NCBI GenBank assembly: GCA_023128035.1
Contig: JAGMES010000043.1
Span: 1-30,824, forward strand
Origin: Halanaerobiales bacterium
GTDB taxonomy: Bacteria > Bacillota_F > Halanaerobiia > DY22613
DNA length: 30,824 bases
Direction of reading: 5' to 3'
Numbering within the stretch: position 1 is the first letter of the stretch; every line of letters begins with the position of its first letter. Under the pieces are notes generated by a model that saw only the letters and a program-made list of their open reading frames with translations, was not told where the DNA came from and made no database searches. Below, piece by piece: positions 1 through 30,824 of this stretch. A program made the translations under genes and the position numbers.

Positions 1-3000
1 AGAATGCCCACCAATATCAAAGAAATTTTCAGTTATACCCACTTTCTCTATTTCGAGCACTTCCTGCCACATTCCTGCAATTTTCTCCTCAATTTCATTT
101 CGAGGTGTAATAAATTTTTTTATGTTTTTTCTATCAAATTCAAAATCTGGCAAAGCTTTATAATTTACTTTTCCACTTGGTGTCAATGGCAGATTAGCTA
201 AAAAGGCATAATTGTAAGGAATCATATAATCAGGCAAATACTCTTTTAGAAACATTTGAAGATTTGTCGAATCAATATACTCCCAGGAAAATGTTTCATG
301 ATCAAAAAATGAATGTTCTACCCAAATACATGGGTCGTAATATTCCCCGATACCTCTACTAAGATCTATTTTTATTGATTGCAAACTATCTTTTGTAAAA
401 TATTCACCAGATTGCGAAAACTTCATTCCAGTCCATTCTTTCCACTCTTCGACAGTACCAGAAATATACTGTGATTCTGTTGCGATTCCTAATACCTTTC
501 CTCCCAAACGCTCATGAATTCTTATCCAGTTATCCTTTGATAATCCATCACTCCGTTTTTCTTTACACCATTTTTCAAATGTCATTTCAGGATGTTGGGC
601 TTTACCAGTTGGTCTTACAGGAATAAGTACTTGATCTAAGTTAAAACCATGGGCAATCGTCTTAAATGCTTTTATGATTAAAGTACCTAATCCCTGATTC
701 TGATATTTTTCTCCTACAACTCCAGCTAATACCAATAATGTGTTTGGTTCTACATTGTTTGCTGCATCTCTAAACCCTTTTTCGACCGCACTATCCCAAC
801 CTTCTGGTAAATTCTCAACTGTACCATCCCAGTATATTGGCATAACATTACCTACCGCTACAACCTCATCTTTATTATTAAGCAATAAAACCTGATACTT
901 ACTGAATTCAACCATAATTTGATTCCAATACTGAAGATATGTTTTGTCTCCAATAAAGTATTCCGGCCAAGCAGCTGAATGAATCTGATCCAAGTCATCT
1001 TTCTTTTCCGGTAATTGGGATAAAGTATATAACTGATATTCCTCACCTGTTTTGCTGGTTAACGAATTAGATTTTTTATTTAATTCTACATATACAGTCA
1101 TTCGTTCTTCCCGATTTTCATCTTTTTTCATCACTACAGCTGATCTGCTTATACCTGGATGTGATCTAATCTTATTTTCAATCTCCTCTAGTTCAACACG
1201 ATTTCCTCGAATTTTTACCTGCCGATCTTTCCGACCGATAAATAGGATATTACCGTCATCTAAGTATTTTCCTAAATCACCCGTTTTATAAAGTCGAGAA
1301 TTTTTATCTTCAGAAAACGGATTTGGGATAAAGCTTTGTTGCGTTTTTTCCAGGTCTCCTAAATAACCTCTTGCCAAACCATGTGATTCAATAAAAATCT
1401 CGCCTGCTACGCCAATCGGTACTGGTTTTAGATTCTGGTCTAAAATATATATCTTCGTATTTGCCACAGGTTTTCCAATTGGAACAATATCACCTTCAAA
1501 ATGGTTTGAACAATCAAAAGTAATCGCATCAATTGTGGTTTCTGTTGGTCCATAATGATTGGAAAATCTACAGTTAAATAAACTATAAAACCGATCTCTT
1601 AACTTTCGAGTCAAAGTATGAGCACCACAAATGACATATCGTAAGGAATGAAGATGTGGGAACTCTTCATTCTCACAAGCATCTAAAAAGGCTTCTAACA
1701 TATCGGGTACAAATTGCAAAAATGTTATCTTATGTTGATATGCTAATTTTCCAATCATTACAGGATCTTTTCTTTCATCTTCCCTCGGAATAATAATCCT
1801 CGCTCCAGAAGTTAAAGGCCAGAAATACTCTAAAATAGAAGCATCAAAGGCGAACGATGTATTCAACAATGTCGAATCAGTATGAAATAATGGATATTCG
1901 TCCTGAATCCATTCAAATAAATTCACTGCTCCTTTATGTTCAATCTCAATTCCTTTTGGCGTTCCTGTTGTACCTGATGTAAAAATCACATAAGCTAAAT
2001 GATTTGAATAAACATCAACATCCGGATTATATGCTGGCATCTTCTCAATCTGCTCCCAATCAGAGTTCATAATAACAGTTCTGGTATCAATACCATTGAG
2101 ATTACGGTCAGAAACTACAACTTGGATACCAGCATTTTCTAAAATAAATCGTTGTCGAGCCTCTGGATATTCTGAACTGATTGGAATATACACTGCACCA
2201 GCTTTTAAAGCAGCCAGCATTGCAATGATCATATCCAGCGAAGGTTCAAACATAATTCCTACTTTATCTTCAACTCCAATATTAAGCATTCTTAGATAAT
2301 GTGCTAGTTGGTTTGCTTTTACGTTTAAATCTCTATAAGTAAGACTATTATCATTAAATATTAAAGCGATATGATCTGGATTCTTCTCTACCTGTCTTTC
2401 AAATTTATGATGAATACAGCTATGCTGATCAAATTCTCTTTCTGTATCATTGAATTCCATGATAATTTTATTTCTTTCATCTTCAGTCAACATATTATAT
2501 TCATCTAATAACTTATTTGAATTATTGATAACAACTTCCAATAATATAATATAACTATCAAGCATTCTCTTTGTTGTATTCTTTTTAAATAAATCTGTAT
2601 TATAAGTTAAAATGAAGGAAATCCCTTCTCCTGATTCATCTATCGCTAATGTGAGATCAAAATGGGATGTTTCTGAATTACTCTCTCCAAGCTCAAAGAC
2701 ATGTTGCAGATTATCAAAATAAATATCTAGTATTTCATCATTCTTCTTATTCATAAGTCCAAACATTACAGAAAACAGTTTCGAGCGTGATAAATCTGTC
2801 TGTAGATTCAATTCTTCAATTGCTAAATTAGATGGATATAAATGATTATCATATGCTTCAATAACCGTTTCTTTTATTTGGAGTATCAAATCCTGGAAGG
2901 TCATTTCTTCCTTAATTGTACAGCGTAAAAGCAATGCACAAGCAAAAAGCCCCAATAAATGTTCAAATTCGGTATGATTTCTGTTCACAAATGGAGTTCC

Positions 3001-6000
3001 AATGACAAAATCCTTTTGCTGGCTTAGACGGTACATTTGAAGATTAAATACAGAAAAAAGCAGCATATAAAGAGTTACGTTATTATTATCACAATATTCA
3101 TAGAGCCTGTCTTTCAACTCTTTACTGAAATTGCACTCAACATTTGATCCATTAAACGTCTGTATTGCAGGTCTTGGGTAATCGGTTGGCAAATCCAGTC
3201 CAGCTGGAATTGTCTTGAATTTATTTAACCAATACTGTCTTTGCTTTTCAAAAATACCTTTTGCAATTGAGTCATTCATCCAGTGAGCATAATCTATATA
3301 ATCAAACTTCAACTTAGGCACTTTAGGTTCTCTATTTTTTGCAAAAGCATTATCTATCTCCATAAACTCTCTTTGCAGATGAATCGTTGATGTTTCATCC
3401 CAGATAATGTGATGTACTACAAACAAAAACACATACCTATTATAACTAATTTGTATAATTTTAATACTAAAGAGCGGGCCAGTTTCAAAGTCGAAAATAG
3501 TATTGGCATGTGCACGAGATAATTTTTTCACCTCATCCATAACCCGGTCTTCATTTATATCTGTATAATCTACATAGATATCTTCAAGCTTAATCTCCAA
3601 CTTTGGATGTATTTTTTGGATTGGTTTTCCATCAATTTCATCAAAATAAGTCCGAAGAATCGAATGACGATCAACTAACGTTTGCCATACTTTTGTAAAA
3701 ACTTTCAGATCTAAGTTTTCATCGAACATAATTTCATGATTGATATTATAAAACGGACTTTCAGGCTCCAATTTATGCATATACCATTCTGGTAACTGAA
3801 CAGGTGCAAGATCGTAATATTTTTGCTCAGGTGCTTTCACAATTTTATTTTCTATAATATAATCTTTTAGTGACTGTTTTTCAGCAATATACTCTCCCAA
3901 ATCTTTAATTGTTGAATGGACAAAAATCTGTTCTAGAGAGATTTCAATATGGAACCCTTCTCTAACTCTATTCAAAATCTTCATCGCACTAATCGAATCT
4001 CCACCGATATCAAAGAAATTATCATTAACCCCAACCTTGTCAACTTCCAGTAGTTCTCGCCATATTTCTGCTAACTTTTCTTCAATTTCATTACCGGGTG
4101 CCTCATACCCTTCACGTGCTTTAATCTCAGGTCTAGGTAATGCTTTCCGATCAATCTTCCCATTTGGCGTTAATGGGATTTTATCCATTTGTACAAAATA
4201 AGATGGGATCATATAACCTGGCAACTGACCAGATAAATAATCTCTTAACTCAGATGTAGTCATATCTAACTCAGAAACCAAATATGCACATAGATATTTC
4301 TCATTTTTCTCAGAAGATTTGGGTTCCTGAAGACCCATTTTCTTCAAAAAGCTTTCATACCCCTTTTGGGTAACAGTACATTCTAAATCTTCTTTCACAT
4401 TTTCCAGACTGATATGACCTAACCGTTTTTCCCAACTTGTAGCACTCCCATAATAATGGTAACCCTTTGTTTGCAGATGACCATAATCTCCTACCTGCTT
4501 AAGTGGGCAATTTGTTGAATAAACCGCAAAATTCTTTCGACTATTCCAATATGAATCTTTATTGTTTAAGTAAGATATAATCTCTTCATTTGTAACATCA
4601 CAATAGCGATAGAAATCAATGAACTTGACTTGATTATATATAGTTCCATCATTGATCTCATCAATATCAAGATAGTTAAATATATTTTTATCAATATTCA
4701 TGGCACTTTTTTGCAGTTTCGCTACTTCTTTTTCCAATTCCTTTTCATCAAAAATGCCCAGTTGAAAAAACATATATAGTTTATTCTCAATAATTTGTCC
4801 ACGGGATAATGTAGCACCTACCACTGCAGGAATTCCATTTTTATAGGCATACTCACCTGCAATTGAAGACGATGCATGAAAACAACCCCTACAAACTGTA
4901 TGAGCTGATTTCAAACTTTCTTTTAAGATTTGATCTGAATTTTTATGAGTAAGTACAGCATGATCTACGCCTAATTTTGAAGTTGCCTTCTTGATATTTT
5001 CCAAATCAGACTTAGTAAAATATCCATTATCATAGGTCAATGCCAGAACGTTCAAACCCCTCTCTACCAAATGATATAACGCATAACCTGCTCCTTTTCC
5101 ACCATTGTAGAGAAGTAAACAATCATATTTTGCATTTTTATCCTGATTAGCATCGTTTATGGCGGTTTCCAAATTATCCATTGTTTTAAAATACTGTTCT
5201 GCATATTTTTTGTATTTATTCAAGTCCTGGCAAACCTCACAGATTCCCTCATCACTAATCTTAACCCCTGGGTAGTTAGATGTAATTCCACATTTTTTAC
5301 AAACTATAACCTCATCCTGCAATTCATTACTATCTTTCACAATCACTACACAATTATCAATATTTTCATGATTTAAAAGAGCTGTTTCAATCTCTCCAAG
5401 TTCAATTCGATATCCGCGAACTTTAACCTGCTCATCAATTCTACCCATAATCTCAATATTTCCATCCTCAAGCCATCTTCCAATATCACCTGTTTTGTAC
5501 AGTTTACCCGTACCAAATGGATTATCAATAAAATTTGCTTCTGTTTTTTCTCGATTATTGATGTAGCCTCTTACAACACTATCACCAGCAATACAAATTT
5601 CTGCTGCGATTTTAACTGGTACAGGTTGCAAATCTTTAGAAAGAATATAAATTTTATTATTGGCAACTGGTTTTCCAATAGGAACAACTTGGCGTGAATC
5701 ATCTCGCTCAAGATCATAATAAGTATTGTTAATCGTACATTCAGTAGGGCCATAGGTATTGACTATTTTTCCATCATAATAGGAGTAGAAGTTCTTCACT
5801 ACATCCATACTAATCGGCTCTGCTCCGATCAGCAACCATGGGAGTTTGAATCGAGGTTTAATATCTTTTTTGTTCAGAAAATATACCATTGCATTTACCA
5901 AAGTAGCTGGACAATACATCATGGTCAAGTCAGTCTCTTCAGCCATTAATTTAATCAAAAATTCGGCATCTTTACTTTGATAAGTAGTTAGAACTTTAAC

Positions 6001-9000
6001 ACTACCTCCAATATACAATGGCCAGAAAATCTCCCATACTGATGGGTCAAAAGTCAAATTTGTCCTTTGGACAATCACATCTTTTTCTGTCAAATTAAAT
6101 TTATCCTGCATCCAATTGATACAGTTGTTTACCTGCCTATGTTCAACCATAACCCCTTTGGGTTTACCAGTTGAACCTGAAGTATACATAACATATGCCA
6201 GATTATCTCCTTTTATCGTAAGGTCAAGATTAGATGAATCCTGCGTAGCTGTATAATCTGCAATTCGGTCAAGAAGCACTACTTCTCTTGAACATGATAT
6301 TTTATCAACATCCTCTACAAAAGCTATCCCATCAATCCCTCTTAAAACGTCATTTTCAGGAATTTCAAAACTATTCTCCAACATCTTTTCAATTAATTCA
6401 CCAAAGGTGTACTCACCTTCTCCTAAAACAACCAGTTTAACGTTCTTATCTCTCAAAATTGTATCATAATCACTTGCTGCATAAGGGCCACCAGCAATGA
6501 TTGGTGCATTAATCCCCCACTGTCTTAATAGTGAAACAGTTTCATGGAAAAATTCTTTAAAAAATGTTAACGTCCGGATGCCAATCAAATCTGGTTGATA
6601 TTCATCCACTAACTTTTTCATATCTTCAAAATTACTAAAATCAATTCCAGATTTATAAATTCGACCGTCAATCAGATCCCCAAATTGTTGGTTTAAGTAT
6701 GTTTGGAGATAAATCAAACCCAGTGGTTGTTCAGAAACATTATACAACATATTATCAGAAGCAAAGTGCTGGGATAAGTCAAGATACAGTATTTTTTTCG
6801 CATCTGGTTTTGGCTTTTGAACAACTGCTTTCCGATCAAAGATTGTATAGGTTATATCTTCTTTTTTCTGTCTAAAATCATTTGATAACCCCATATTATC
6901 TAGTTGAGCAAAGTTTATAATATCTTCTACAGATTTGATCTCAATAGGTAGATATGCATTGTATTTCTGAACAATAGCATCTTCGCTCAATATCTTCATT
7001 TGAATCGGAAGCACATGCATCAAACGTTCTTTTGATAAAAAGTATTCATTCATAAAGTTGGTCTGGTACTTTCTAGTAAAACTCTTCGGAAATGGTAACG
7101 TTTCTGGCAACTCGTGATATGCTCGACCCTTTGAAAGCATAATATCATTTTTGGAAATTCCATGAGCTAGGGCCAACTCTTCCATCTCAGTATTCGGATA
7201 TATTTTCAAAATATGAATATAAGGAAAATGAATCCAATTAATATCTTTAATGAAATCCAATGTCATCATTGCTTCTTCTTCTGTTTCAGTCGGAAATCCA
7301 TGCATTGTGGCAATTTCTAAAATAACATTCGGGTATGTTTTAGCAATATAATCTATAGCATTTTTGAATTTTGGAATATCCAAGTTCTTTTTAACCAATT
7401 TTTGTAATCTTGGTGAAGCTGTTTCTAAAGAAAGATTAATGTTACAGGTTCCCGCTTCTACCATTAAATCAATATAATCTGGTGTCAAAAGATCTCCCCT
7501 TAGTCCGTTGGGGAAAAAGATTTTTACGTCCAGTTTGTTTTTTATAATCATTTTAAACAATCTACTACTATTCTCTATATTCAAGTTAAAACAGTCATCA
7601 ATAAATGCAAAATTTGTCACGCCATTTTTATAGTAGTATTCAATTTCGTTATACATATTTTCTGCACTTCGAAAAACATGGTTTTTAGACCAGACTTTAT
7701 GACAATATACACATTTATATGGACAACCTCGTGTACTTTGCAGAGAAATGGAATTAGTTACACTTGCCATACCGATCTTATTTTTATAATTTTTAAAATT
7801 GATCAATTTTCGATCAGGCATTGGTAATAGATCAAATGCTTGAATATGTTTTCGGATATTAGTAACAACTACCTGGATATTCTGATTTCCTGCTAAATTC
7901 TGAAGAGAAGTGAACGGAATATCCTTTACAGCCTCACTATTGGCAAGAAGAAGTTTGGCTCTAGAGTCTTCAAGCATATAGAGTACCCGTTCCTGAGGTA
8001 ATTCAGGATCAATTGGCAAATATGCTCCCCCTGCTTTTAAGATTGCTAGCAAACTGATAATCAACTCTTCTGAACGTTCCATCATAATGCCGACGACAGT
8101 CTCAGAAGTAACTCCATTTTTTCTTAATACTCTTGCCACTTGATTTGCCTTTTCATTTAAATTTTGATATGTTAGCTTCTTCTCTTCACAGGTTACTGCT
8201 ACACGTTCTGGATTCTTCTCTACCTGTTCTTCAAATAATTTATGAATCGCTTTATTATTTAGGTACTCTGCATCTGTATTATTAAAATCTAATAACAGCT
8301 GAAACTTCTCTTCCACTGAAAGAATTTCTATACTTGTCTCTTTTATATTGATTTGATTCAGAGCTTGTAGCAATAGGTTCTCAAAATGAGATATAATCCG
8401 CTTGATCGTTGTTTTCTCATAAAGTGTAGTGTTGTACTCTAATTGGCCTTTGAGTAAATCATCTTTATGCACAAAGGAAAATACCATATTTGATTGAATA
8501 TGCTGAATATATCTTTTGTCATGAATATTTTCTAACAATAACACTATATCAAATAAGAAAAATTCATCTTCAGTTTCAGAAAAGCCTAACTGTTCTAACA
8601 ACATTTCAATCGGATAATCCTGATGTTTCGTTGCTTCAAACATCGTATCTTTTACCTGTAAAATCAAATCTTTAAATATCATATCCTCTTTCAATTGATT
8701 CCTTAATGTAATGATTGTATTGATAAATTCACCTTCAACATCTTGCTTATAAATCGGTGAGCCAATCATTATATCCTTATTGCCAGTATATTTATCAATC
8801 AGTACAACCAACCCTGCAACTAAAATCATATGCAGTCTATAATCTGAACCATTACTTAATTTCAATAATTTATAAGATAATTCATCAGAAAAGGTAAAGT
8901 TTACTGTATTTGAGAGATACTTGTTATTACCCTTTTTATAATCAGTGGGAAAACTGGTTTTAACCAGTTCTCCCGATAATTTATTTAACCAATAATCTCT

Positions 9001-9060
9001 CTCTTTGGTCTTTTGATTTGCAGCAGCAATAATTTTTCCTGATAAAGTTCTACTAATCAT
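1..9060 (-). CDS. NRPS-3, non-ribosomal peptide synthetase with embedded radical-SAM/B12-like, PP-loop and GNAT domains (3' end outside window)
   Basis: Third synthetase of the operon; 3020 codons are visible and the frame is open to base 1. Order by approximate residue: extra C-terminal condensation lobe 1-255; A domain from 267, interrupted at 405-915 (radical SAM, then B12-like) and at 1240-1580 (PP-loop), with its A3 motif at 956 and A10 at 1635; carrier with FFDIGGDSI (Ser 1689); condensation domain with HHIIWDE at 1883-1889; A domain from 2208, interrupted at 2650-2940 (GNAT-like); carrier FFDIGGHS ending on the last codon. Both A domains keep the A3, A5, A7 and A10 motifs and the A10 lysine, so adenylation should work. 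Pocket residues read DPWYLGTIN and DALQIGHID, which I cannot assign. ATG 9060 is preferred because AAGGAG lies 6 nt upstream; in-frame ATGs at 9066 and 9087 are poorly spaced. It starts 28 nt after NRPS-2. Confidence 0.95.
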   Translation of the reverse strand, partial: MISRTLSGKIIAAANQKTKERDYWLNKLSGELVKTSFPTDYKKGNNKYLSNTVNFTFSDELSYKLLKLSNGSDYRLHMILVAGLVVLIDKYTGNKDIMIGSPIYKQDVEGEFINTIITLRNQLKEDMIFKDLILQVKDTMFEATKHQDYPIEMLLEQLGFSETEDEFFLFDIVLLLENIHDKRYIQHIQSNMVFSFVHKDDLLKGQLEYNTTLYEKTTIKRIISHFENLLLQALNQINIKETSIEILSVEEKFQLLLDFNNTDAEYLNNKAIHKLFEEQVEKNPERVAVTCEEKKLTYQNLNEKANQVARVLRKNGVTSETVVGIMMERSEELIISLLAILKAGGAYLPIDPELPQERVLYMLEDSRAKLLLANSEAVKDIPFTSLQNLAGNQNIQVVVTNIRKHIQAFDLLPMPDRKLINFKNYKNKIGMASVTNSISLQSTRGCPYKCVYCHKVWSKNHVFRSAENMYNEIEYYYKNGVTNFAFIDDCFNLNIENSSRLFKMIIKNKLDVKIFFPNGLRGDLLTPDYIDLMVEAGTCNINLSLETASPRLQKLVKKNLDIPKFKNAIDYIAKTYPNVILEIATMHGFPTETEEEAMMTLDFIKDINWIHFPYIHILKIYPNTEMEELALAHGISKNDIMLSKGRAYHELPETLPFPKSFTRKYQTNFMNEYFLSKERLMHVLPIQMKILSEDAIVQKYNAYLPIEIKSVEDIINFAQLDNMGLSNDFRQKKEDITYTIFDRKAVVQKPKPDAKKILYLDLSQHFASDNMLYNVSEQPLGLIYLQTYLNQQFGDLIDGRIYKSGIDFSNFEDMKKLVDEYQPDLIGIRTLTFFKEFFHETVSLLRQWGINAPIIAGGPYAASDYDTILRDKNVKLVVLGEGEYTFGELIEKMLENSFEIPENDVLRGIDGIAFVEDVDKISCSREVVLLDRIADYTATQDSSNLDLTIKGDNLAYVMYTSGSTGKPKGVMVEHRQVNNCINWMQDKFNLTEKDVIVQRTNLTFDPSVWEIFWPLYIGGSVKVLTTYQSKDAEFLIKLMAEETDLTMMYCPATLVNAMVYFLNKKDIKPRFKLPWLLIGAEPISMDVVKNFYSYYDGKIVNTYGPTECTINNTYYDLERDDSRQVVPIGKPVANNKIYILSKDLQPVPVKIAAEICIAGDSVVRGYINNREKTEANFIDNPFGTGKLYKTGDIGRWLEDGNIEIMGRIDEQVKVRGYRIELGEIETALLNHENIDNCVVIVKDSNELQDEVIVCKKCGITSNYPGVKISDEGICEVCQDLNKYKKYAEQYFKTMDNLETAINDANQDKNAKYDCLLLYNGGKGAGYALYHLVERGLNVLALTYDNGYFTKSDLENIKKATSKLGVDHAVLTHKNSDQILKESLKSAHTVCRGCFHASSSIAGEYAYKNGIPAVVGATLSRGQIIENKLYMFFQLGIFDEKELEKEVAKLQKSAMNIDKNIFNYLDIDEINDGTIYNQVKFIDFYRYCDVTNEEIISYLNNKDSYWNSRKNFAVYSTNCPLKQVGDYGHLQTKGYHYYGSATSWEKRLGHISLENVKEDLECTVTQKGYESFLKKMGLQEPKSSEKNEKYLCAYLVSELDMTTSELRDYLSGQLPGYMIPSYFVQMDKIPLTPNGKIDRKALPRPEIKAREGYEAPGNEIEEKLAEIWRELLEVDKVGVNDNFFDIGGDSISAMKILNRVREGFHIEISLEQIFVHSTIKDLGEYIAEKQSLKDYIIENKIVKAPEQKYYDLAPVQLPEWYMHKLEPESPFYNINHEIMFDENLDLKVFTKVWQTLVDRHSILRTYFDEIDGKPIQKIHPKLEIKLEDIYVDYTDINEDRVMDEVKKLSRAHANTIFDFETGPLFSIKIIQISYNRYVFLFVVHHIIWDETSTIHLQREFMEIDNAFAKNREPKVPKLKFDYIDYAHWMNDSIAKGIFEKQRQYWLNKFKTIPAGLDLPTDYPRPAIQTFNGSNVECNFSKELKDRLYEYCDNNNVTLYMLLFSVFNLQMYRLSQQKDFVIGTPFVNRNHTEFEHLLGLFACALLLRCTIKEEMTFQDLILQIKETVIEAYDNHLYPSNLAIEELNLQTDLSRSKLFSVMFGLMNKKNDEILDIYFDNLQHVFELGESNSETSHFDLTLAIDESGEGISFILTYNTDLFKKNTTKRMLDSYIILLEVVINNSNKLLDEYNMLTEDERNKIIMEFNDTEREFDQHSCIHHKFERQVEKNPDHIALIFNDNSLTYRDLNVKANQLAHYLRMLNIGVEDKVGIMFEPSLDMIIAMLAALKAGAVYIPISSEYPEARQRFILENAGIQVVVSDRNLNGIDTRTVIMNSDWEQIEKMPAYNPDVDVYSNHLAYVIFTSGTTGTPKGIEIEHKGAVNLFEWIQDEYPLFHTDSTLLNTSFAFDASILEYFWPLTSGARIIIPREDERKDPVMIGKLAYQHKITFLQFVPDMLEAFLDACENEEFPHLHSLRYVICGAHTLTRKLRDRFYSLFNCRFSNHYGPTETTIDAITFDCSNHFEGDIVPIGKPVANTKIYILDQNLKPVPIGVAGEIFIESHGLARGYLGDLEKTQQSFIPNPFSEDKNSRLYKTGDLGKYLDDGNILFIGRKDRQVKIRGNRVELEEIENKIRSHPGISRSAVVMKKDENREERMTVYVELNKKSNSLTSKTGEEYQLYTLSQLPEKKDDLDQIHSAAWPEYFIGDKTYLQYWNQIMVEFSKYQVLLLNNKDEVVAVGNVMPIYWDGTVENLPEGWDSAVEKGFRDAANNVEPNTLLVLAGVVGEKYQNQGLGTLIIKAFKTIAHGFNLDQVLIPVRPTGKAQHPEMTFEKWCKEKRSDGLSKDNWIRIHERLGGKVLGIATESQYISGTVEEWKEWTGMKFSQSGEYFTKDSLQSIKIDLSRGIGEYYDPCIWVEHSFFDHETFSWEYIDSTNLQMFLKEYLPDYMIPYNYAFLANLPLTPSGKVNYKALPDFEFDRKNIKKFITPRNEIEEKIAGMWQEVLEIEKVGITENFFDIGGHS
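241..1113 (-). other. GNAT-like acyltransferase domain embedded in the A8-A9 region of NRPS-3
   Basis: Residues about 2650-2940 interrupt the second A domain after KIRGNRVELEEIE and before LPDYMIP and PSGKVNYK. The acetyl-CoA pyrophosphate-binding motif of GNAT proteins is clear (VVGEKYQNQGLGTLIIKAF, Q-x-x-G-x-G), preceded by a beta strand (TLLVLAGVV). About 290 residues is longer than a minimal GNAT of roughly 150, so there are flanking extensions. Possible roles are N-acylation of the loaded residue or a decarboxylase-type loading activity, as described for some polyketide-synthase GNATs; the sequence does not decide. Confidence 0.75.
4321..5343 (-). other. PP-loop (N-type ATP pyrophosphatase-like) domain embedded in the A8-A9 region of NRPS-3
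   Basis: Residues about 1240-1580 lie between A8 (KVRGYRIELGEIE) and A9/A10. A four-cysteine knuckle (VCKKC ... EGICEVC) resembles the start of N-acetyl-sugar amidotransferases (WbpG/PseA type). The P-loop position reads LLYNGGKGAGYALYHL, then LALTYDNGYF, LGVDHAV, VCRGCF and GATLSRGQI. The family motif is SGGxDS; here it is NGGKGA, so Ser, Asp and Ser are all replaced. PP-loop enzymes adenylate a carbonyl so that N or S can replace O, giving amidines, thioamides or amides. Whether this copy is active is uncertain. Confidence 0.82.
6316..6813 (-). other. B12-binding-like domain following the radical-SAM domain in NRPS-3
   Basis: Residues about 750-915 run KKILYLDLS, EQPLGLIYLQTYL, DLIGIRTL, PIIAGGPYA, LGEGEYTFGELI, GIDGIAF, the strand and turn signature of the cobalamin-binding fold found with radical-SAM enzymes. 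The DxHxxG motif that supplies the lower histidine ligand is not seen, as in many class B members. It is C-terminal to the radical-SAM domain, whereas the usual order is the reverse. The A3 motif resumes about 40 residues later. Confidence 0.8.
6991..7848 (-). other. Radical-SAM domain embedded in the A2-A3 loop of NRPS-3
   Basis: Residues about 405-690 follow the A2 motif (AGGAYLPIDPELP) and precede A3. They contain the LPMPD linker typical of B12-type radical-SAM enzymes and the cluster motif RGCPYKCVYC (C446, C450, C453, the CxxxCxxC that binds a 4Fe-4S cluster and SAM). Further on come the family-typical IDDCF, a SLETASP strand and HGFPTET. It resembles class B (cobalamin-domain) radical-SAM proteins. 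Such enzymes methylate unreactive carbons or carry out other radical chemistry; which reaction and which carrier-bound residue are unknown. Confidence 0.9.
8296..9060 (-). other. N-terminal half condensation domain of NRPS-3 (C-terminal lobe only)
   Basis: Residues about 1-255 begin at the YWLNKLSGEL element that normally follows motif C4 of a full condensation domain. They then show C5-like (KQDVEGEFINT) and C6-like (HQDYPIE) motifs. Motifs C1 to C3, including the catalytic HHxxxDG, are absent. The segment closely resembles the start of NRPS-2 in sequence and length. Because the upstream protein already ends with a complete C domain, this lobe is probably structural or for docking rather than catalytic (inference). 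Confidence 0.85.
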
Positions 9061-9066
9061 ATTCAT

Positions 9067-9072
9067 CTCCTT
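9067..9072 (-). promoter_or_regulatory. Ribosome binding site of NRPS-3
   Basis: AAGGAG lies directly against ATG 9066 but 6 nt from ATG 9060, which decides the start in favour of 9060. Confidence 0.8.
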
Positions 9073-9088
9073 CTTTCTTCTATCCATT

Positions 9089-12000
9089 TTAAAATGCAAA
9101 ATCACTTTCATCAGATAGTAGAACATCAGAAATTGTCGATAATAAGCCATGTGTAATTTGGATATCATTTAATTTACTATCAATATTTTCTGTGATGGCT
9201 GATACAATTTCTTTGAAGTTTCTTACATACATTTCGATTGTATCTTCCTTAAATAGTGCTGTACTATATTCAATAACAAAAATAAGTTTTTCATCTACTT
9301 CCATTCCTCTTAATTTCATGTCCATCTGAGCAGCATTTTTTTCATAATTATATGGTTTTAATTTCAAATCCGGAATTTCCATTTCTGTTATTCTCTCATT
9401 GTTTAAGACAAACATAACGTCAAATAGAGGATTTCGACTCAAATCTCTTTTTTTAACTACTTTTTCTACTAAATTTTCCAGTAAATAATCTTGATTTTCA
9501 TATGCCGCTAATGTTCTGTCCTGTACATCTTTCAAAAACTCTCTAAAAGTCATCTTTCCTACAGGCTTATTTCTCAATGCAAGCGCGTTAATAAACATAC
9601 CTACAATGTTTTGAAGGTCTGCATGTCTACGACCTGCAATTGATGTTCCGACTACGATATCTTCCTGACCACTCAATTTGGAGAGACACACATTATATAC
9701 CGCCAAAAGGACCATAAATAAAGTTGCATCTTCTTCTAATGCAATTCTCTTTAATGCTTCTGTCTCCTCATGACCAATCTCAAAGTTTATACCACTTCCA
9801 TCAAAAGTCTGGACAGGTGGTCTGGAATAATCAATCGGTAGGTTTAATACTGGAATATCACCTGCAAACTGCTGTAGCCAGAATTTTTCCTGCTTTTTCA
9901 TCTCATCTTTCTGTTTTTCACTACTCTGCCATGCAGAATAATCTTTATATTGAAGTCTTAATTTAGGCAATTTTTGACCAGCATACAATGCCATGAACTC
10001 TTTCATTAATATATCATCCGAAGTACCATCTGTTATAATATGATGCATATCTAACATGAGTATATGCCGATTTTTCCCCACTTTTATTAACCCTGCTCTA
10101 AAAAATGGAGCTTTACTAAGGTCAAATGGTCTTACAAAAGTATTTATTTTCTCTTCTGCTTTCTCTACACTTATTTCATCATATTCTACAGCAAACTCCA
10201 CACTCGCATGAATTTTTTGGATAGGCTCTTCATTTTGGAGAACAAACGAAGTTCGTAAACTTTCATGTCTCTCAATCAGCTTCTTAAAGATTTCTTCTAA
10301 CTTCTCCTTTTCAATCTCTCCTTCTAATATGACAACTTTTGGGGTATTATAACTGAGATTATCTGTTTGAAGTTGCTGAAGGAAATATAATCTTCTCTGA
10401 ACTGATGAAACAACATAATACTCTTTTTCTTCCACTGGCATAATCGTTATATATTCTTCTTTCCTTGCATCTTTGATCTTTTCTGCTAATCCTCTCACGG
10501 TCGATTGTTGAAATACATCCATAAGCGTGATTTTTATATTCCGTTCTTTATGTAGTTTTGAAATGAATGTCGTTGCTTTTAATGAATGACCACCCAGTTC
10601 AAAGAAATTAGCATCGATTCCTATAAGATTTTCTTCTATTCCTAAAACTTCAGACCAGAGCTCAATTAATGTCTTTTCGATTACACTTCGTGGTGCTATA
10701 TACTCTCCATCAAATTTGACAACAGGTGAAGGTAAAGCATTTCGATTAATCTTGCCATTTGGTGTTAAAGGAATCTTTTCTAACTGTACAAAATGAGATG
10801 GAATCATATAATCGGGCAAAATATTAGAGAGATATGTTTTTAGCTTCAATCCTTCTATCTCTTTTTCTGCAACAATATATCCACAAAGATATTTTTCACC
10901 AACTTGATCTAAGCGATCGAGTACAACTACCTCTTTAATCTCTTTATAATCCAATAAGTGCTTCTCTATCTCTCCTAGTTCTATTCTAAAACCTCTAATT
11001 TTTACCTGATGATCAATTCTACCTAAAAACTCAACATTTCCATCTAGTAACCATTTAGCTAGATCACCAGTCTTATACAGTCTTTGCCCTTTCTCAAATG
11101 GGTTTTCAATAAACCGCTCTGCTGTTAACTTAAGCCTATTCAAATAACCTCTAGAAACTCCATCTCCTGCTATATATAACTCTCCTGCAACACCGATTGG
11201 TACCACTTTTTGATCTTTATCCAATATATAAATCTTTGTATTATTGGCTGGGGTCCCTATAGAAACAGATTTCCCTTTATCGTTCTCAGGGTTAAATTTA
11301 TAAAGCATACATCCAACTACTGTCTCTGTTGGACCATATTCATTATAGATTTCAATATTTCCTCCAAATTTTTCACTAATATCTCTTGCTAATCTAGTTT
11401 CTAATTCTTCTCCACCAACTATGAAACGTCGAATATTGGATTGTTCAATCTTTTGATCTCTTATTACCTTTAAATGTGACGGAGTTAGCTTAATAACCTC
11501 AACTTGATTTTCTCTAATAATTTTTTCAATCAACAATTCTTTATCTTCTTCTCCATAAACAACAATTGTATTACCTGTAATTAATGGAGTAAAGATTGAT
11601 GTAACTGTCAAATCAAAGGAAATAGATGTATATAATGGAAATTTCACTCGTTCATTACGAACATAATTTTTTGTTGCCCACCAAATATAATTTACAGCTC
11701 CTTGATGTTCGATCATTACACCTTTCGGCTGGCCAGTTGTTCCAGACGTATAAATCATATAAATTAAATCTTTTGGGTTATTAATAATCTCTAAATTTGA
11801 ACTATCACCAGAATAAATACTCTGATCATCCACAAAGATTATCACTTTCAAACTCTCAATCTGTAATAAATCATTTTCCTCATCAACCAAATCTTTCTGC
11901 AAAAGCAAAATTTTTGCCTTACTATCTTCAAGTATAAATTTTTTCCTTGCATCTGGATAGTTAGGATCGATTGGTAAATATGCTCCTCCAGCTTTTAAAA

Positions 12001-15000
12001 TTGCAAGTATACTAATCACCAGATCTAAAGAACGTTTTTGCATAACTCCCACCATTGTGTCTGGTTTGACACCTATAGCCCTCAATAGATGTGCCAATTG
12101 ATTTGCCTTTTCATTCAGTTCCCTATATATCAACGACTTCTCTTCAAATATAACTGCTACGTCTTCTGACATCTTTTCTACCTGTTCTTCAAATAGCTGA
12201 TGCATAACCCGCTTCTTAGGATATTCTGATTCGGTCTGGTTAAAATTGCATAATATCTGCTCTTTTTCAACTTCATCTATGATTTCTATTTCAGATATTT
12301 TCTGCTCTGGATCATCGAGAATTAAATTCACTATCTTTTTAAAGTAGATTGCCATCCTTTGAATCGTCTGTTCTTTGAATAACTTTGTACTGTATTCAAA
12401 ACTTAAAGCCAGACCATTTTCATGCTCGTCTACTGACAATGTAAGGTCAAATTTTGATATTTTATTTTCAAATTCATATGGCCCTAATTTCAAACCTGAA
12501 ATTTCTCCTACAGGAACATCAAAGTTTTGCAGCATGAACATCACGTCAAATATTGAATTACGGCTCGTATCTCTTTTAACTTCCAATTTCTCCACCAGAT
12601 CTTCAAATTGATAGTCCTGATTTTCATATGCCTGTAATGTTCTATCTTTCACTTCTTTTAAAAATTCCTTAAATCTCTTTTCAGCTACTGGGTAATTTCT
12701 CAGGGCCAGCGTATTAACAAACATCCCTACGATCTCCTCTACATCTGAATGCCGTCTTCCAGCAACTGGAGTCCCGACTACAATATCTTCCTGACCACTC
12801 AGCTTAGAAAGCAAGAGATTATATGCTGCAAGCAATACCATATACAGAGTAGCGTCTTGCTCTTTTGCAAGCTTATTTAATGTCTCTGTTTTCTCTTTCT
12901 CTAACTCGAAAGTAAACATTCTGCCCTCAAAGCTGCGTATTAATGGTCTTGTATAATCGGTTGGCAAATTCAATACCGGGATTTCCCCTTCAAAATCTTT
13001 TAACCAATACTCTTCCTGCCGTCCGAACACTTCTTTAACCTTTTCACTATTATGCCATTCTGCATAATCTTTATATTGAAGTTTCAATTCAGGAAGTTCT
13101 TCATCTCCATAGAGTGCCATAAAATCTCTCATAAGAATTCCTTCAGAAACACCATCAGATATTATATGATGGGTATCCAGCATGAGTATATGTCTTTTCT
13201 CTCCGAGATTGATCAGACCAACTCTAAATAATGGTGCCTGACTTAAATCAAAAGGTCTGACAAAATTCCTTATAATCTCTCCAACTGTATCTTCATCTGC
13301 TTTATAATACTCCACCTCAAACTCGACGATTTCTGAATGAATCTTCTGTACAGGTTTTTCATCTACAATATCAATATATGTCCTTAAACTTTCATGCCTT
13401 TTGATTAACTTTCTGAAAGTCTCTGCAAATTTTCCTCTATCAAGTTCTCCTATCAATAATGCAACACCAGGCATATTATAGACAACACTTTCTTCTTCCA
13501 TCTGCTGTAGGATATATAATCTTTTCTGTGCTGATGATAATAGATAGTGTTCTTGTTCTCCTACTGGTTCAATTGAAAAATATGTGCTCTTCTTAGCACC
13601 ATTGATATATTCAGCAAGCTCTTTAATCGTTGACCTCTCAAAAAATTCGGCTAATGGAACTTCTACATTTAATTCTTTATGAATTCTCGCCAAAATAGTA
13701 ATTGCTTTCAAAGAATGGCCACCTAAATCAAAAAAGTTACCCTCAATTCCGATCTGATACCCATCTACACCAAGTACCTCAGACCAGATTGTTTCCAATT
13801 CCTTCTCTACTTGATCTCTTGGCGCAATATATTCCGGATTGGTTTGTTGATTAAACTCCTGATATTTTTCAAGAGATTTACGATCAATCTTACCATTTGG
13901 TGTTAATGGTATCTGATCTAACTGAATAAAATGTGCTGGAATCATATAATCTGGCAAACTATCTAATAGATATTCTTTAACCTCAGAAATATCCAATTCT
14001 TCATTTGCTACCAGATAAGCAGAAAGATACTTATTACCCAGTTCATCCTCTTGGTCAAGAACGACTGCCTCCTGAATCTTCATATGATCCACCAATTTAC
14101 TTTCAATCTCGCCCAATTCAATTCTAAATCCTCTAATCTTTACCTGATAATCTTTTCTGCCAAAAAATTCGATGACTCCATCTGGAAGCCAGCGCCCCAA
14201 ATCTCCAGTTTTATAAAGTCTAACTCCCTTCTCTTCCGCAAATGGGTCTTCTATAAATACATTCTTTGTCCGTTCCTCATCGTTTAAGTATCCTCTACCG
14301 ACTCCCACTCCAGCAACACAGATCTCGCCTTTAACTCCAATTGGACATAGTTTCATATTTTCATCAACGATATAAATTTTGAAATTCTGCAATGTTTTGC
14401 CGATTGGAACTTGTTCCATCTCTGGTGCATGATCCATGATGTGATGGGTTATATCATCAGAGGCTTCTGTAGGACCATACGCATTGACCATTTTGATCTT
14501 TGGATACATATCAAACCATCTCTTTACCAAATATGGTTTGATAGCCTCACCAGTCACCAGAAGATAATTCAAACTTTCAAATTTTCTGAAATTCAAATCT
14601 AAAGAATCTAACATGACTGATAAGTAAGAAGGAACAACTTCTAAAATTGTAATCTGATCTTCAATCACTTGATTGATAAATTGGTTTGGATTTAAAATCA
14701 ACTCATTTGAATAGATAACCGTCCCGCCTCCTACCATTAATGCTACCAAAAATTGCCATACAGAAATATCAAAACAATGAGAAGCGTTCTGAGCAACAAT
14801 GCTATTTTTATTGATTTGAAGTTCATTGATTTTGGCTTGAATATGGTTCATCATTCCAATATGTTCTACCATAGCACCTTTAGGATTGCCAGTAGAACCA
14901 GAAGTATAGATTACATATGCCAGATTCTCCGGCCTTGCCTGAATCGAGATATCTTCAGTAGAATATTTCTCCAAAGCTCTTACATCATGCTGTCGTTTAT

Positions 15001-18000
15001 GTTTTAAATCTTCTTTATTTACCTTGTTCTCTCTTTTATCTATTCTGATGAGAGTATCATAACGGAATTTTGTCAGCTCATTTTCGATCGTATAAAACTT
15101 TTTTGTAAACTCCACATCCAGAATTTCAGGAATTTCATATCTTAAATCTTCAAAGAAACGCTGCGAAACAAAGAGTTCTGTATTCCAATCGGTTTTCGTT
15201 TTATAGTCCTTATCTTTGTTAGCACATTTAAATTCGGTTAACTCTTCGATCAGGTTCTCTTTCTTATCCTGGTCCATTACATCCCCAATAAATAGATAAC
15301 CTTGGTCATTTAATAAATTGATTGCTTTTCGAATCCCTTTTCTAAGATAATTATGACCATGAAAATCTTGAATAACACTATTGATTATAATCAGATCAAA
15401 GTTTTTCTCATCCAGTTTATCAATCTCATGGAATGGCATGGAGGCCAGAGCGATATTTTGATGTCCTTCTTCTTTAACACGTCTTCTATTCTTTTCAATA
15501 ATCACTCTGGAAAGATCTGTTCCATAATAAAATCCTACATTTGGAGCAATCCGATACATAGTAATCCCTGAGGCACAACCGATCTCTAAAACTCTCATCT
15601 TTCTATGAAGAATCGGTCTTAGCTTTTTCAGAACATTATCTCCATACTCATCCATCTCTTCTTTAGATATCGGTTGCCCTGTATAACTGCTAATCCAACC
15701 CCCACCAGTAATCTCATCAGTAGCGGTCTCACCAATGTATTCCCACAGTTTTTCATCCATTGCTTCAATTTTTTCTGCCTCATCTTCCATATAAATGTTC
15801 ACACTATCTATACATAAGAAGATATCAAACTGTTCACATTCCCATTGAAGTCGGTTTAGAGTTCTAATATATCTCTTCTCTGATATAACAATTTGAACTT
15901 CTGCATCATTTAGCATCGCCTTGATTCGTTCTTCCGGATCAACTGGATTAATTGGAACATAAACAGCACCAGCTTTAAATATCCCCAAAATAGCTATCAG
16001 CATATTTTCCGAACGATTCATTAATATTCCAACTATTGTTTCAGGGGTAATCTTTTGTTCATGAATTAAATAATTTGCTACTTGATTAGACTTTTGATCT
16101 AACTCGTTATATGTAAGTTGACGATCTTTACATATCACTGCAATATCTAAAGGATTCTCCTCAACCTGTTCTCTAAAAAGATCCACGACGGTTTTTTCTT
16201 TTAGGAAATCAACCTTTGTTTGATTAAAGTCAAATAAAATCTGTTGCTTTTCCTCTCCTGACATGATGTCAATTTCCATCAACTTCATTTCTGGCTGATC
16301 TACAATCTGTTTTACAATATTTATATAATGTACAAGTAGCCTTTCGATAGTCTCTCTCCTGAAAAGCTTTGTACAATAATCTAGATTAAATATAATACTC
16401 CCATCTGCCTCGACTATATTAAATTCAAGATCAAATCTTGCAATTTTTTGTCCAAACTTATAAGGAGTAAAAGTCAAATGATTAACCGTTATATCAGGCA
16501 TACTCATATTGTGCAGATCAAACATTGTATTGAAGAGAGGGTTACTACTCAAATCTCTTGGTATATTCAATTTCTCAACAAGTTCTTCAAATTGATAATC
16601 CTGATTCTCATATGCCTTTAATGCACTTTCCTTAACACTTCCTAAGAATTCTTTAAATGTTTTCTGTCCTTCAGGATAGTTCCGCATTGCCAGAGCATTA
16701 ACAAACATACCGATAACATTTTCAAGTTCCAAATGTTGCCGTCCAGCTATTGAAGAACCGACGATAATATCTTTTTGACCCGTGTATTTGAACAATAATA
16801 CATTATAAGCAGCCAGTAATATCATGTATAGCGTAGTATCTGTCTCAGAGCTAAGTTTCTTTATCTTCTCCGTCAATACTGAATCAATCTCAAAAACAAT
16901 ACTATCTCCTTCAAAACTTTGAATCGGAGGTCTCGGATAGTCTGTAGGAAAATTTAAAACAGGAATTTCCCCTGAAAAAAGATCTAACCAATATCTTTCT
17001 TGTTGATCAATCTCACCTGAAAGAATCCATTCATTCTGCCATGCAGTGAAGTCCTTATAATGCACTTCTAATTCTGGCAAACTTTTACCTTCATACATAT
17101 CAATTAAATCTTGCATGAGAATGCTAAAAGAAGTTCCATCAGAAATAATATGATGCATATCTAACATCAGTAAATTCTTTTGATCTGCCAATCTTACTAA
17201 TTTTACTCTAAATAATGGTGCTTTAGAAAAATCAAAGAGCTGGATAAATTCTTCCATAATCTTTTCTACTTGATCTTCAACTGCTTCACCATATTTTACT
17301 TCAAAATCGACATAGCCATGTATCTTTTGTACGTAATCTCCATCCATAAAATCAAAGGATGTTCTAAATACCTCATGTCTTTCTACCAATTTCTTGAATA
17401 TTTCATTAAAACGTGGTTGATCAAGCTTACCCTCAAGCATCATCGCAAAAGGCATATTATAGCTTGTCCTTACTTCTTCAAATTTATCTATAATTAACAT
17501 CCTCTTTTGTGCTGAAGATATTGAATAGTATTCCTTTTTCTCTAAAGGTTTTATTGATGAATATGTATTCCCATCAATACTGTCTATATATCTTGCCAGT
17601 TCTTTTATCGTTGCTGCTTTAAAAATCTCTACAACTGGAACTTTTACATTCAAGAGTTTGTGAATCCTGGCTGCAAGTATGGTTGCTTTTAAGGAATGAC
17701 CGCCTAATTCAAAAAACTTATCATTGATTCCGATCTTCCGATTTACAGATAATATTTCTTCCCATAATTCTACTAATATCTTTTCTGTTTCAGTTTTTGG
17801 TGTTTCATATTCAACTTCTGTATTGAAACTCCCATCCGGCTCTGGTAACCTTTTTTTATCGATCTTACCACTTGGTGTCAATGGTAACTGATCCATCTGT
17901 ACAAAATTTGATGGAATCATATAGTTAGGTAATGTAGTAGCCAAATGATCAGCAAGCTCTGATACTGTTAGTTCTTTTTCAGCTGTAAAATATGCACATA

Positions 18001-28770: not shown

Positions 28771-29214
28771 CTATTTCAATTGCATATATAAGGTATTCGG
28801 ATAGAATTCAAGCTTTTTATAAAACCATATCGTAGATTCATTCTCTTGGGATACTGTTACCCCAATCACTTTACAATTCTTTTCTTTCATCCATTCTATA
28901 TGTTTAATTACAAGTTTCTTCCAAATTCCATTCCCTCTATTAGTCTCATCAACATGCAGTGATTCAAGCTCTCCCTTCCCATCAATTATCGTTGATATAC
29001 AATATCCAATATACTCATCATTGCTTATGGCGACAGTTATTTTCATTGTCTCCTCATTAAACACACCGAAAGCTTTGATTCTCTGATCAAAACTAATAAA
29101 ACGGTATGATTCCTTGAAGTATTCTGAACTATTCTCATGATACTGTCTATTTTTTTCCCAAAGGCTCTTGATGACTGCAATTTCATCATAAGAAATATCA
29201 AAGATCTCATTCAC
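28771..29214 (-). CDS. GNAT family N-acetyltransferase
   Basis: 147 residues, a normal size for a single-domain GNAT. The central strand GELESLHVDE is followed by the acetyl-CoA-binding motif NRGNGIWKKLV (R-x-x-G-x-G variant, with N before G) and a typical C-terminal part, NESTIWFYKKLEFYPN. It transfers an acetyl group from acetyl-CoA to an unknown amine, in the cytosol. The start is GTG 29214; its ribosome-binding site is weak. It is separated from the next minus-strand gene by about 190 nt holding a palindromic repeat, so it may be transcribed on its own. No link to the NRPS operon is evident. Confidence 0.8.
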   Translation of the reverse strand: MNEIFDISYDEIAVIKSLWEKNRQYHENSSEYFKESYRFISFDQRIKAFGVFNEETMKITVAISNDEYIGYCISTIIDGKGELESLHVDETNRGNGIWKKLVIKHIEWMKEKNCKVIGVTVSQENESTIWFYKKLEFYPNTLYMQLK

Positions 29215-29309
29215 GATTATCTATCTCTTCATAATTTTTTTCTACGCACACAGACGGAAGCCAGCGCGTAAATTTATTCATATATAGTTTAGCATTGCTG
29301 CACATATAA

Positions 29310-29378
29310 GGCATAAACGAAGTTCCTGGGACGTAGTGGAGGGAATTTGGGCGAAGCGATAGCATCCTCGTTTATGCC
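29310..29378. repeat. Imperfect palindromic intergenic element with 11-bp arms
   Basis: GGCATAAACGA (29310-29320) is the exact reverse complement of TCGTTTATGCC (29368-29378), enclosing 47 nt that are G-rich and compositionally unlike the neighbours (GGGACGTAGTGGAGGGAATT region). It looks like a dispersed intergenic repeat or a foldable recombination-type site. It lies between two minus-strand genes. The remaining bases of 29215-29402 show nothing else. Confidence 0.5.
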
Positions 29379-29402
29379 ATGTTAAGTGTAGTTGGACGGT
29401 CT

Positions 29403-29810
29403 TTAAAGTTCTAAAATTTTCGTTTCATCTGATTTCTGTAATCTTTTCTTTTTGGATGGAAGATAATAATTTGTCGAATATGATTCTTCAATTTTTTGAT
29501 TTCCTGATTTGCTAAAACGTAAATTAATTTTCTTCCCTTTCCCCCACTTTTTATATACCTTTAATGATGGGTTCAATTTGCTATCCTTAGCAAACTTCTT
29601 TAATTCCTTCATAATCACTGTTAATTTTGATAAATTTCCTTCACAGACTCTTTCTAAATATGGAATCCTTCCATGACGCCAATCCTCATAATTCTTCTGA
29701 GAAAGTCTATTCATCTTGATTAATAAGTCAACTGCACTCACATATCCATTTTCAGATACTAACGCTCCAGCTGTTTCTCTTACTTTCTTCTTTAATTGCT
29801 CTCTATTCAC
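29403..29810 (-). CDS. Conserved hypothetical protein with WRxGRxPYLE and LSKL motifs
   Basis: 135 residues, basic, without signal peptide or membrane segment. Recognisable blocks are YEDWRHGRIPYLERVC, GNLSKLTVIMKELKKFA and LRFSKSGNQKIEESY. I recall similar small proteins in Bacillota but know no function. The K/R-rich composition would fit nucleic-acid binding, which is only a guess. The start is GTG 29810, with TGGAG about 10 nt upstream lying in the stop region of the preceding GNAT gene. The 16-nt gap suggests co-transcription with that gene. Confidence 0.75.
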   Translation of the reverse strand: MNREQLKKKVRETAGALVSENGYVSAVDLLIKMNRLSQKNYEDWRHGRIPYLERVCEGNLSKLTVIMKELKKFAKDSKLNPSLKVYKKWGKGKKINLRFSKSGNQKIEESYSTNYYLPSKKKRLQKSDETKILEL

Positions 29811-29826
29811 ATTTATTCATCTCCAG

Positions 29827-30276
29827 TTATCTCAGGTGATATATCATATGTATGTTATCCTTCTCTTTGAATCCCAATTTTTTATAGTAACCCAAAGCTT
29901 GTCTATTCGTTGGAGTCACTTCCAGACTAAATGCTGATACTTTATTACAATATACATTGAATATATAGTCAAAAAATTTTGTAGCAATTCCTTGATTCCT
30001 ACTAGTTGGACTTACAAATAATTCATCAATATTTAAGATATCTCCACCATATTCATTACTCCAATAAAAAATCAAAATTGCATAACCTACTATTTGTGCA
30101 TTTTCTTCAAATACAATAATCTTGCCTTTTTCAGGATGTGAAGACAATTCATTAATTGTTTTGTCAACCTTCTCCTGAGTAATAACTTCACCTTCTGGAT
30201 CTTCATGATATAAAGCAAAAATCATATCGATTATTTCCGAATAATCTCCCGATTTATAGTTTCTAAAAATTATCAT
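29827..30276 (-). CDS. GNAT family N-acetyltransferase
   Basis: 149 residues with a complete GNAT fold signature: DILNIDELFVSP (beta 4), SRNQGIATKFFDYI (acetyl-CoA loop R-x-x-G-I-A), SLEVTPTNRQALGYYKKLGF (beta 5 and helix 4). It is a cytosolic acetyl-CoA-dependent acyltransferase of unknown substrate. Its ATG overlaps the TGA of the upstream DUF6429-like gene by 4 nt (ATGA), implying translational coupling. It shows little similarity to the GNAT at 28771-29214 beyond family motifs. Confidence 0.88.
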   Translation of the reverse strand: MIIFRNYKSGDYSEIIDMIFALYHEDPEGEVITQEKVDKTINELSSHPEKGKIIVFEENAQIVGYAILIFYWSNEYGGDILNIDELFVSPTSRNQGIATKFFDYIFNVYCNKVSAFSLEVTPTNRQALGYYKKLGFKEKDNIHMIYHLR

Positions 30277-30530
30277 ACTGTCTCTTCCTCTGAAACGATA
30301 CTAAGATATTTTCTTACCAATTCTTGTGCTTTTGCAACACCTTCTTCAGTTATATATACTGATTTTGATCGATTACTTCCTTTAATATATCCTTCTTCGC
30401 TCAATTCATCTAAAATTTCATACGGGTAACCTTTCCAACTTCTCTGTAATTCACCCAAGAATCTATCTTTTTCATTCCATGATGTTAGATACAATAAAAG
30501 TAAAGATAATTCCTTGATTTTTTCTTCCAT
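30273..30530 (-). CDS. DUF6429-like small winged-helix-type protein
   Basis: 85 residues: ELSLLLLYLTSW, then RSWKGYPYEILDELSEEGYIKGSNRSKSVYITEEGVAKA. This pattern matches what I know of the DUF6429 family, and the alternating helices with a final beta wing (KSVYITEEG) resemble a winged-helix fold. DNA binding is possible but unproven. AAAGGAG precedes the ATG at a slightly long spacing of about 11 nt. It lies 48 nt downstream of the topoisomerase gene, overlaps the next GNAT gene by 4 nt, and is probably in one transcript with both. Confidence 0.78.
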   Translation of the reverse strand: MEEKIKELSLLLLYLTSWNEKDRFLGELQRSWKGYPYEILDELSEEGYIKGSNRSKSVYITEEGVAKAQELVRKYLSIVSEEETV

Positions 30531-30578
30531 AAAAAGTACATCTCCTTTTTTTTGAAAGCCTTATAGAGTCTGTTTCCC

Positions 30579-30824
30579 TTACTCAAATTCAAACTTAACC
30601 TTTAGATTCTCGTCAAGAATCAGTCGTGCCTGATACTTCTTCCCCGTCTTTTTAGACTTAAAACCTTTAAGTATCGCAGTTCTTCTCTTTTTCAGGAGAG
30701 TATTCACTTGGTTAGGGGTCAGCGTCTTACCACCAATCACCTTAAAAATGCTGAAATCACATTTCTTTTGCGGATGATTCCAGTTTGGGCAACTAAAAGA
30801 TCTCTTTGTTTCAATGAGTGGGGC
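30579..30824 (-). CDS. topB: DNA topoisomerase III-type protein, C-terminal fragment (5' part outside window)
   Basis: 81 codons plus TAA are visible and the frame is open to the window edge. The segment starts with an imperfect zinc-knuckle stretch (FSCPNW ... KKCDFSIFKVIGGK) followed by LTPNQVNTLL, ILKGFKSKKTGKKYQARLIL and KFEFE. This is the repeat that closes many bacterial topoisomerase III (type IA) proteins. The catalytic toprim and tyrosine regions would lie beyond the edge, so a shorter protein carrying only this repeat cannot be excluded. Confidence 0.65.
   Translation of the reverse strand, partial: APLIETKRSFSCPNWNHPQKKCDFSIFKVIGGKTLTPNQVNTLLKKRRTAILKGFKSKKTGKKYQARLILDENLKVKFEFE

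Follow-up and report, generated by a model that had tools for sequence, protein, structure and literature searches.

A 30,824-nucleotide stretch of DNA from a Halanaerobiales bacterium (contig JAGMES010000043.1; hereafter the window) encodes a nonribosomal peptide synthetase (NRPS) in which one adenylation (A) domain is interrupted twice. Specifically, the first A domain of the third NRPS gene, P0001, carries a unit made of a radical S-adenosylmethionine (SAM) domain and a B12-binding-fold domain between motifs A2 and A3, and an AANH domain between motifs A8 and A9. A first-pass annotation, made from the sequence alone, had proposed a radical-SAM and B12-like insert in the A domain of module 6. 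Family matches, conservation, and a predicted model support a cobalamin-type radical-SAM insert; this is the sixth A domain when the three genes are read in order. Yet the earlier picture was incomplete, because it contained neither the second insert nor the permuted order of the first, nor the interruptions of two further A domains in the window. The AANH insert bears on the chemistry of the radical unit. We give an even chance to a reading in which the radical unit would act in cis as a cobalamin-dependent radical C-methyltransferase on the carrier-bound residue, and the AANH domain would serve as its ATP-independent iron-sulfur (FeS) or zinc partner.

All three NRPS genes of the window lie on the minus strand. 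P0001 is cut by the contig edge, and its true start codon may sit some codons downstream of the open frame's first position. The features of the gene and its interrupted A domain are as follows.

1..9168, minus strand: third NRPS gene, P0001, 3056 codons (open frame with Condensation, AMP-binding and PP-binding matches)
8005..8034, minus strand: motif A2, AGGAYLPIDP, residues 379-388 (motif position)
6214..7929 (limits estimated), minus strand: first insert, radical-SAM and B12-fold unit between A2 and A3 (profile matches and motifs)
7249..7737, minus strand: radical-SAM domain, residues 478-640 (PF04055, E 4.1e-20)
7702..7731, minus strand: CxxxCxxC motif RGCPYKCVYC, residues 480-489 (motif position)
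6394..6729, minus strand: B12-binding-fold domain, residues 814-925, with GGPYA and GEGE (PF02310, E 1.5e-9)
6154..6186, minus strand: motif A3, YTSGSTGKPKG, residues 995-1005 (motif position)
5386..5445, minus strand: motif A8, GRIDEQVKVRGYRIELGEIE, residues 1242-1261 (motif position)
4315..5313 (limits estimated), minus strand: second insert, AANH/PP-loop domain between A8 and A9, approximately residues 1286-1618 (TIGR03573)
3994..4023, minus strand: carrier (T) domain motif DNFFDIGGDS, downstream of the interrupted A domain (Pfam and motif position)

A single open frame of the minus strand (9168 to 1) contains A2, the CxxxCxxC motif, GFPTET (residues 624-629), GGPYA (893-897), GEGEYTF (916-922), and A3, so that all six motifs named in the first-pass annotation could be placed on it. 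A-domain motifs thus flank a catalytic insert in one frame, which is the arrangement that defines an interrupted A domain. A2 and A3 lie 616 residues apart here but only 73 apart in the A domain that follows in P0001 (starts 2323 and 2396), implying that about 543 residues have been inserted. A9, A10, and the T domain come after the second insert. The PF04055 match scores 73.1 bits against a cut-off of 29.5, which places the insert in the radical-SAM superfamily, while cobalamin use by the unit is predicted from the PF02310 match (38.2 bits, cut-off 32.1). In the predicted structure, the A core closes around the first insert (predicted local distance difference test score, pLDDT, 86.8; predicted template-modelling score, pTM, 0.87) and superposes on 1amu over 412 residues at 2.4 Å. 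The core is therefore predicted by the model to fold normally around the insert.

The fusion is widespread but patchy, judging from its varied named sources and low counts in genome sets. We searched residues 405-985 against approximately 5.8 billion proteins, which yielded 4429 candidates and 819 matches at E <= 0.001, of which 120 of NRPS length were listed, including the window's own protein (P0006). Radical-SAM and B12 parts were found in 120/120 of the matches listed, and an AANH part followed the first radical unit in 103 of them. Named sources were Ruminiclostridium cellulolyticum, Acetivibrio cellulolyticus, Clostridium tagluense, Halanaerobiales, Candidatus Aminicenantes, and Omnitrophota. 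Within genome sets, the fusion was detected in 2/391, 4/58, and 1/22 genomes, representing five different genomes in all. No match was obtained among 396 genomes of the phylum of G441, nor, with a separate-protein query, among 392 genomes of the order of G001, in searches that scored a maximum of three candidates per genome and could have missed some. Likewise, a contig scan with two generic radical-SAM patterns kept 80 of 427 loci (identity <=37%), none of which was taken as a family member, and a plasmid search returned 32 records, all of which covered less than 80% of the query (best, 34% identity over 41%). An assembly artefact joining two genes was rejected on the grounds that the fusion recurs on many separate contigs and on the R. 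cellulolyticum chromosome, a contig of 4,068,724 bases.

The order of domains sets the radical unit apart from class 1 cobalamin radical-SAM enzymes. Cobalamin radical-SAM enzymes have been grouped by domain order and, in that account (PMC13331322), class 1 has a five-stranded B12 fold with a C-terminal hairpin, whereas class 2 (Mmp10 and DUF512 proteins) has a four-stranded fold. Mmp10 is described there and in PMC8828468 as the only characterised enzyme with a C-terminal B12 domain. Our unit shares the CxxxCxxC motif with the class 1 enzymes OxsB, TokK, and TsrM, and the motif is kept in 253/253 radical-SAM/B12 units. In the predicted model, moreover, the B12 part has five strands (500-506, 542-549, 570-574, 599-602, and 621-623, model numbering) followed by a hairpin (657-674), and an Mmp10-type fold was set aside on the strand count. 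However, the B12 domain of class 1 enzymes is N-terminal, whereas here it is C-terminal to the radical-SAM domain, as in class 2, and the whole unit is embedded in an A domain. The same order was seen in a second homologue search in 119/120 of the matches listed, the remaining one having no B12 match. On the model, the B12 domain resembles those of class 1 but sits C-terminally, which looks like a circular permutation. The family would thus join a class-1-type domain to a class-2 order, a third arrangement beside the two classes named in PMC13331322.

Profile comparisons are consistent with this arrangement. Positions 149-366 of the KedN5 profile align to residues 8-223 of P0231, and positions 21-156 and 17-152 align to the C-terminal residues 401-537 of P0129 and 403-539 of P0150, which points to a permutation break near the junction of the B12 domain and linker. 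These proteins and their kin have the same domain order as the insert and are 46-54% identical to it (23 aligned), but they stand alone, whereas in P0001 the unit is embedded. None of the 23 NCBIfam B12 radical-SAM families listed (PhpK, BchE, KedN5, and others) matched the insert at its own curated cut-off. PhpK scored best (95 of 600 bits), and BchE and ApyD were among the top scorers. By sequence, the radical insert matches 6fd2 and 9ccb. As a separate observation, 30/83 of the stand-alone permuted proteins (e.g., P0150 and P0160) end in a DLENE-like acidic tail, which may serve for docking onto NRPS partners.

The second insert matches TIGR03573, a profile for N-acetyl sugar amidotransferases (E 4.6e-24, 85.5 bits, under the curated cut-off of 203.2). 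Seven of its cysteines are conserved, and its PP-loop, NGGKGA, is degenerate. Across 105 embedded copies of the AANH domain, a set that includes the window protein twice, all seven cysteines (four in N-terminal CxxC motifs and three of the CxxC/C type) are always present and the PP-loop Asp is always missing, its position being taken by G (87), V (15), A (2), or S (1). We set aside a working amidotransferase on this ground. According to PMC6772006, the AANH enzyme CtaC of R. cellulolyticum thioamidates carrier-bound chains, its D77A and S78A mutants lost activity, and cysteine mutants had reduced activity. We took L106 of R. cellulolyticum to be CtaC because it carries D77, S78, C154, C157, and C284 in agreement with the published protein. 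The FeS-type cysteines matching C154, C157, and C284 occur in 105/105 embedded domains, and L106 aligns at 24% identity. The likeness to CtaC and to other AANH enzymes (TIGR03573, TtuA) thus lies in fold family and cysteine pattern, and the differences lie in the absent Asp and the embedding in an A domain. A model of the AANH domain, built from four sequences and weak (pLDDT 62.7), was used for fold family only; its nearest folds were Legionella sugar amidotransferase, TtuA, NcsA, LarE, and YcfA (TM-scores 0.2 to 0.5).

Loss of the Asp appears, in what could be seen among the AANH proteins examined, to accompany the radical insert. The residue is kept in L106, in six further AANH proteins (L100-L105) from three genomes, and in L099. 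The last of these (also L107; G411:C1:1948389-1949411) is an A domain whose only insert is AANH, placed between A8 and A9; its SGGKDS loop is intact and its specificity code differs. A search restricted to relatives 193-616 residues long found 18 proteins, of which 17 had NRPS domains and one was a 218-residue fragment, so that no separate protein was seen at that sensitivity. The PP-loop was legible in nine of them, reading GGRG in six, NGGRSA in one (P0257), and SGGKDS in two (P0256 and P0258; 37 and 33% identity), whose sequences do not tell whether a radical insert is present.

Doubly interrupted A domains also share essentially one specificity code, DP[WF]Y[ILFV]GT[IV]N. From 121 A domains following a B12 part, eight short ones were dropped, leaving 94 with AANH, among which the window's domain appears under both P0001 and P0006, and 19 that lack it. 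The code read DPWY (92) or DPFY (2), then [ILFV]GT[IV]N, in 94/94 of the former. Among the 19, DPWY was found in three, namely P0090 and P0126, which both appear incomplete, and P0098. The remaining 16 had varied codes, including DVQFIAHVV, DGFFLGVVY, DAFWLGGTF, and DFWQIGMVH, which look like codes for Pro, Ile, Val, and Thr, respectively. In a quick FastTree tree of 253 radical-SAM/B12 units, all 104 AANH-bearing units fell within one set of 112 rows with a support of 100, the other eight being four unclassed rows, two cut-off units, P0098, and P0116. The AANH label required 3 changes on this tree compared with a shuffled mean of 67.3 (52 unlabelled rows not counted).

How might such a domain work? 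The A domain would activate one particular amino acid and load it onto the T domain. The radical-SAM domain may then generate a 5'-deoxyadenosyl radical that abstracts hydrogen from the tethered residue, and methylcobalamin held in the B12-fold domain could donate its methyl group to the unactivated carbon. With its ATP-activation Asp gone and its cysteines kept, the AANH domain is likely to be an FeS or zinc partner that operates without ATP, in an electron, sulfur, or binding role. C-methylation, which the first-pass annotation had suggested, is plausible. Several observations nevertheless weigh against this account. Reaction, cofactor, and substrate of the radical unit are predictions only, and methylation alone leaves the AANH domain unexplained. 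Cobalamin radical-SAM enzymes that do not methylate are known (OxsB, AlsB, ThnL, and BchE; PMC13331322), and BchE is one of the best-scoring models on the insert. Fold searches with the large model returned A domains only, with no solved-structure match for the radical insert. Furthermore, P0098 keeps the DPWY code although its AANH domain is deleted to a short remnant, and P0116 lies inside the AANH clade with a different code, DVWFFSLVD.

The alternative that survives best, although we consider it unlikely, is radical sulfur insertion, in which the FeS site of the AANH domain would donate sulfur without ATP to a substrate radical, forming a C-S bond on the loaded residue. The invariant cysteines and uniformly absent Asp of the AANH domains fit this idea, as do the sulfur transferases (TtuA, NcsA, and LarE) among the nearest folds of the weak AANH model and the existence of a thioether-forming cobalamin radical-SAM enzyme, ThnL (PMC13331322). 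However, the radical unit also occurs without AANH, whether embedded or separate, P0098 retains the code in its absence, and the FeS cluster is putative. Next in order, and likewise improbable, is a different cobalamin radical-SAM reaction on the loaded residue, such as ring formation, ring contraction, or dehydrogenation; the non-methylating enzymes and the high scores of BchE and ApyD speak for it, whereas the diversity of A-domain codes next to the radical insert favours a reaction of general scope over one tied to a particular substrate. Two classic reactions, radical C-methylation plus ATP-dependent thioamide or amidine formation by the AANH domain despite its altered loop, would be in keeping with the thioamidation by CtaC and with the intact SGGKDS of L099, where no radical insert is present, but this seems a poor prospect given that the D77A and S78A mutants of CtaC are inactive and that all 105 copies lack the Asp. 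Finally, although the window comes from a single contig end and its AANH domain has a degenerate PP-loop, misassembly or a non-functional passenger insert is scarcely credible when the fusion occurs on a chromosome and many separate contigs, the cluster cysteines are invariant, and the frame is open throughout.

A radical-SAM/B12 unit would allow unactivated C-H bonds to be functionalised in cis, within the loading domain. Methyltransferase-interrupted A domains (TioS AMA4, PDB 5wmm; TioN; KtzH) contain a Rossmann methyltransferase, whereas here the insert is a radical-SAM/B12 unit and the same A domain has an additional AANH insert. A 2024 review lists methyltransferase, oxidase, and ketoreductase domains as A-domain inserts, and the word "radical" is absent from it (PMC11355689). 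In the accessible open-licence literature in PMC, we found no description of an A domain interrupted by radical SAM or of a C-terminal B12 domain in such an arrangement, which agrees with the first-pass annotation that no characterised example was known. Earlier sightings are possible, however, because a figure legend in PMC6772006 notes rSAM in clusters that carry homologues of CtaC and the search covered open-licence texts. The family is large, which points to a substantial body of products still to be explored. Since some copies belong to culturable organisms, R. cellulolyticum among them, the proposal is testable now, and both the common specificity code and the loss of the ATP-activation Asp give clear points to check. 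A bolder picture, which we regard as rather doubtful, is a self-contained radical tailoring station, that is, one NRPS module that would select, load, and radically thiolate (or methylate and thiolate) one building block recurring across many anaerobic bacteria.

The neighbours of the gene in R. cellulolyticum, A. cellulolyticus, and G411 include an NRPS of approximately 1500 amino acids, a beta-lactamase-family protein, and polyketide synthase-like genes; our literature search found no product assigned to the cluster. The beta-lactamase-family protein (L089:14260-15801) matches PF00144 in R. cellulolyticum and has BLAST homologues in A. cellulolyticus and G411 (L091 and L093), beside the homologous NRPS. 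It is reminiscent of the prodrug peptidases found in other NRPS gene clusters. The R. cellulolyticum cluster also includes a stand-alone gene for a B12 radical-SAM protein of 630 amino acids, and a separate AANH gene lies near the G411 copy.

Two other A domains of the window are also interrupted. The second A domain of P0001 has an insert between A8 and A9 (289-1071) with a weak GNAT match (PF00583, E 0.0037, below cut-off), for which a PDB sequence search gave one match only, at chance level. The second A domain of P0002 carries a methyltransferase insert between A2 and A3 (14939-15856; PF13847, E 4.1e-13), the classic type of A-domain interruption. The minus strand upstream of the three NRPS genes (28771-30824) encodes two GNAT proteins, a DUF6429 protein, and the C-terminal end of a topoisomerase (PF13342).
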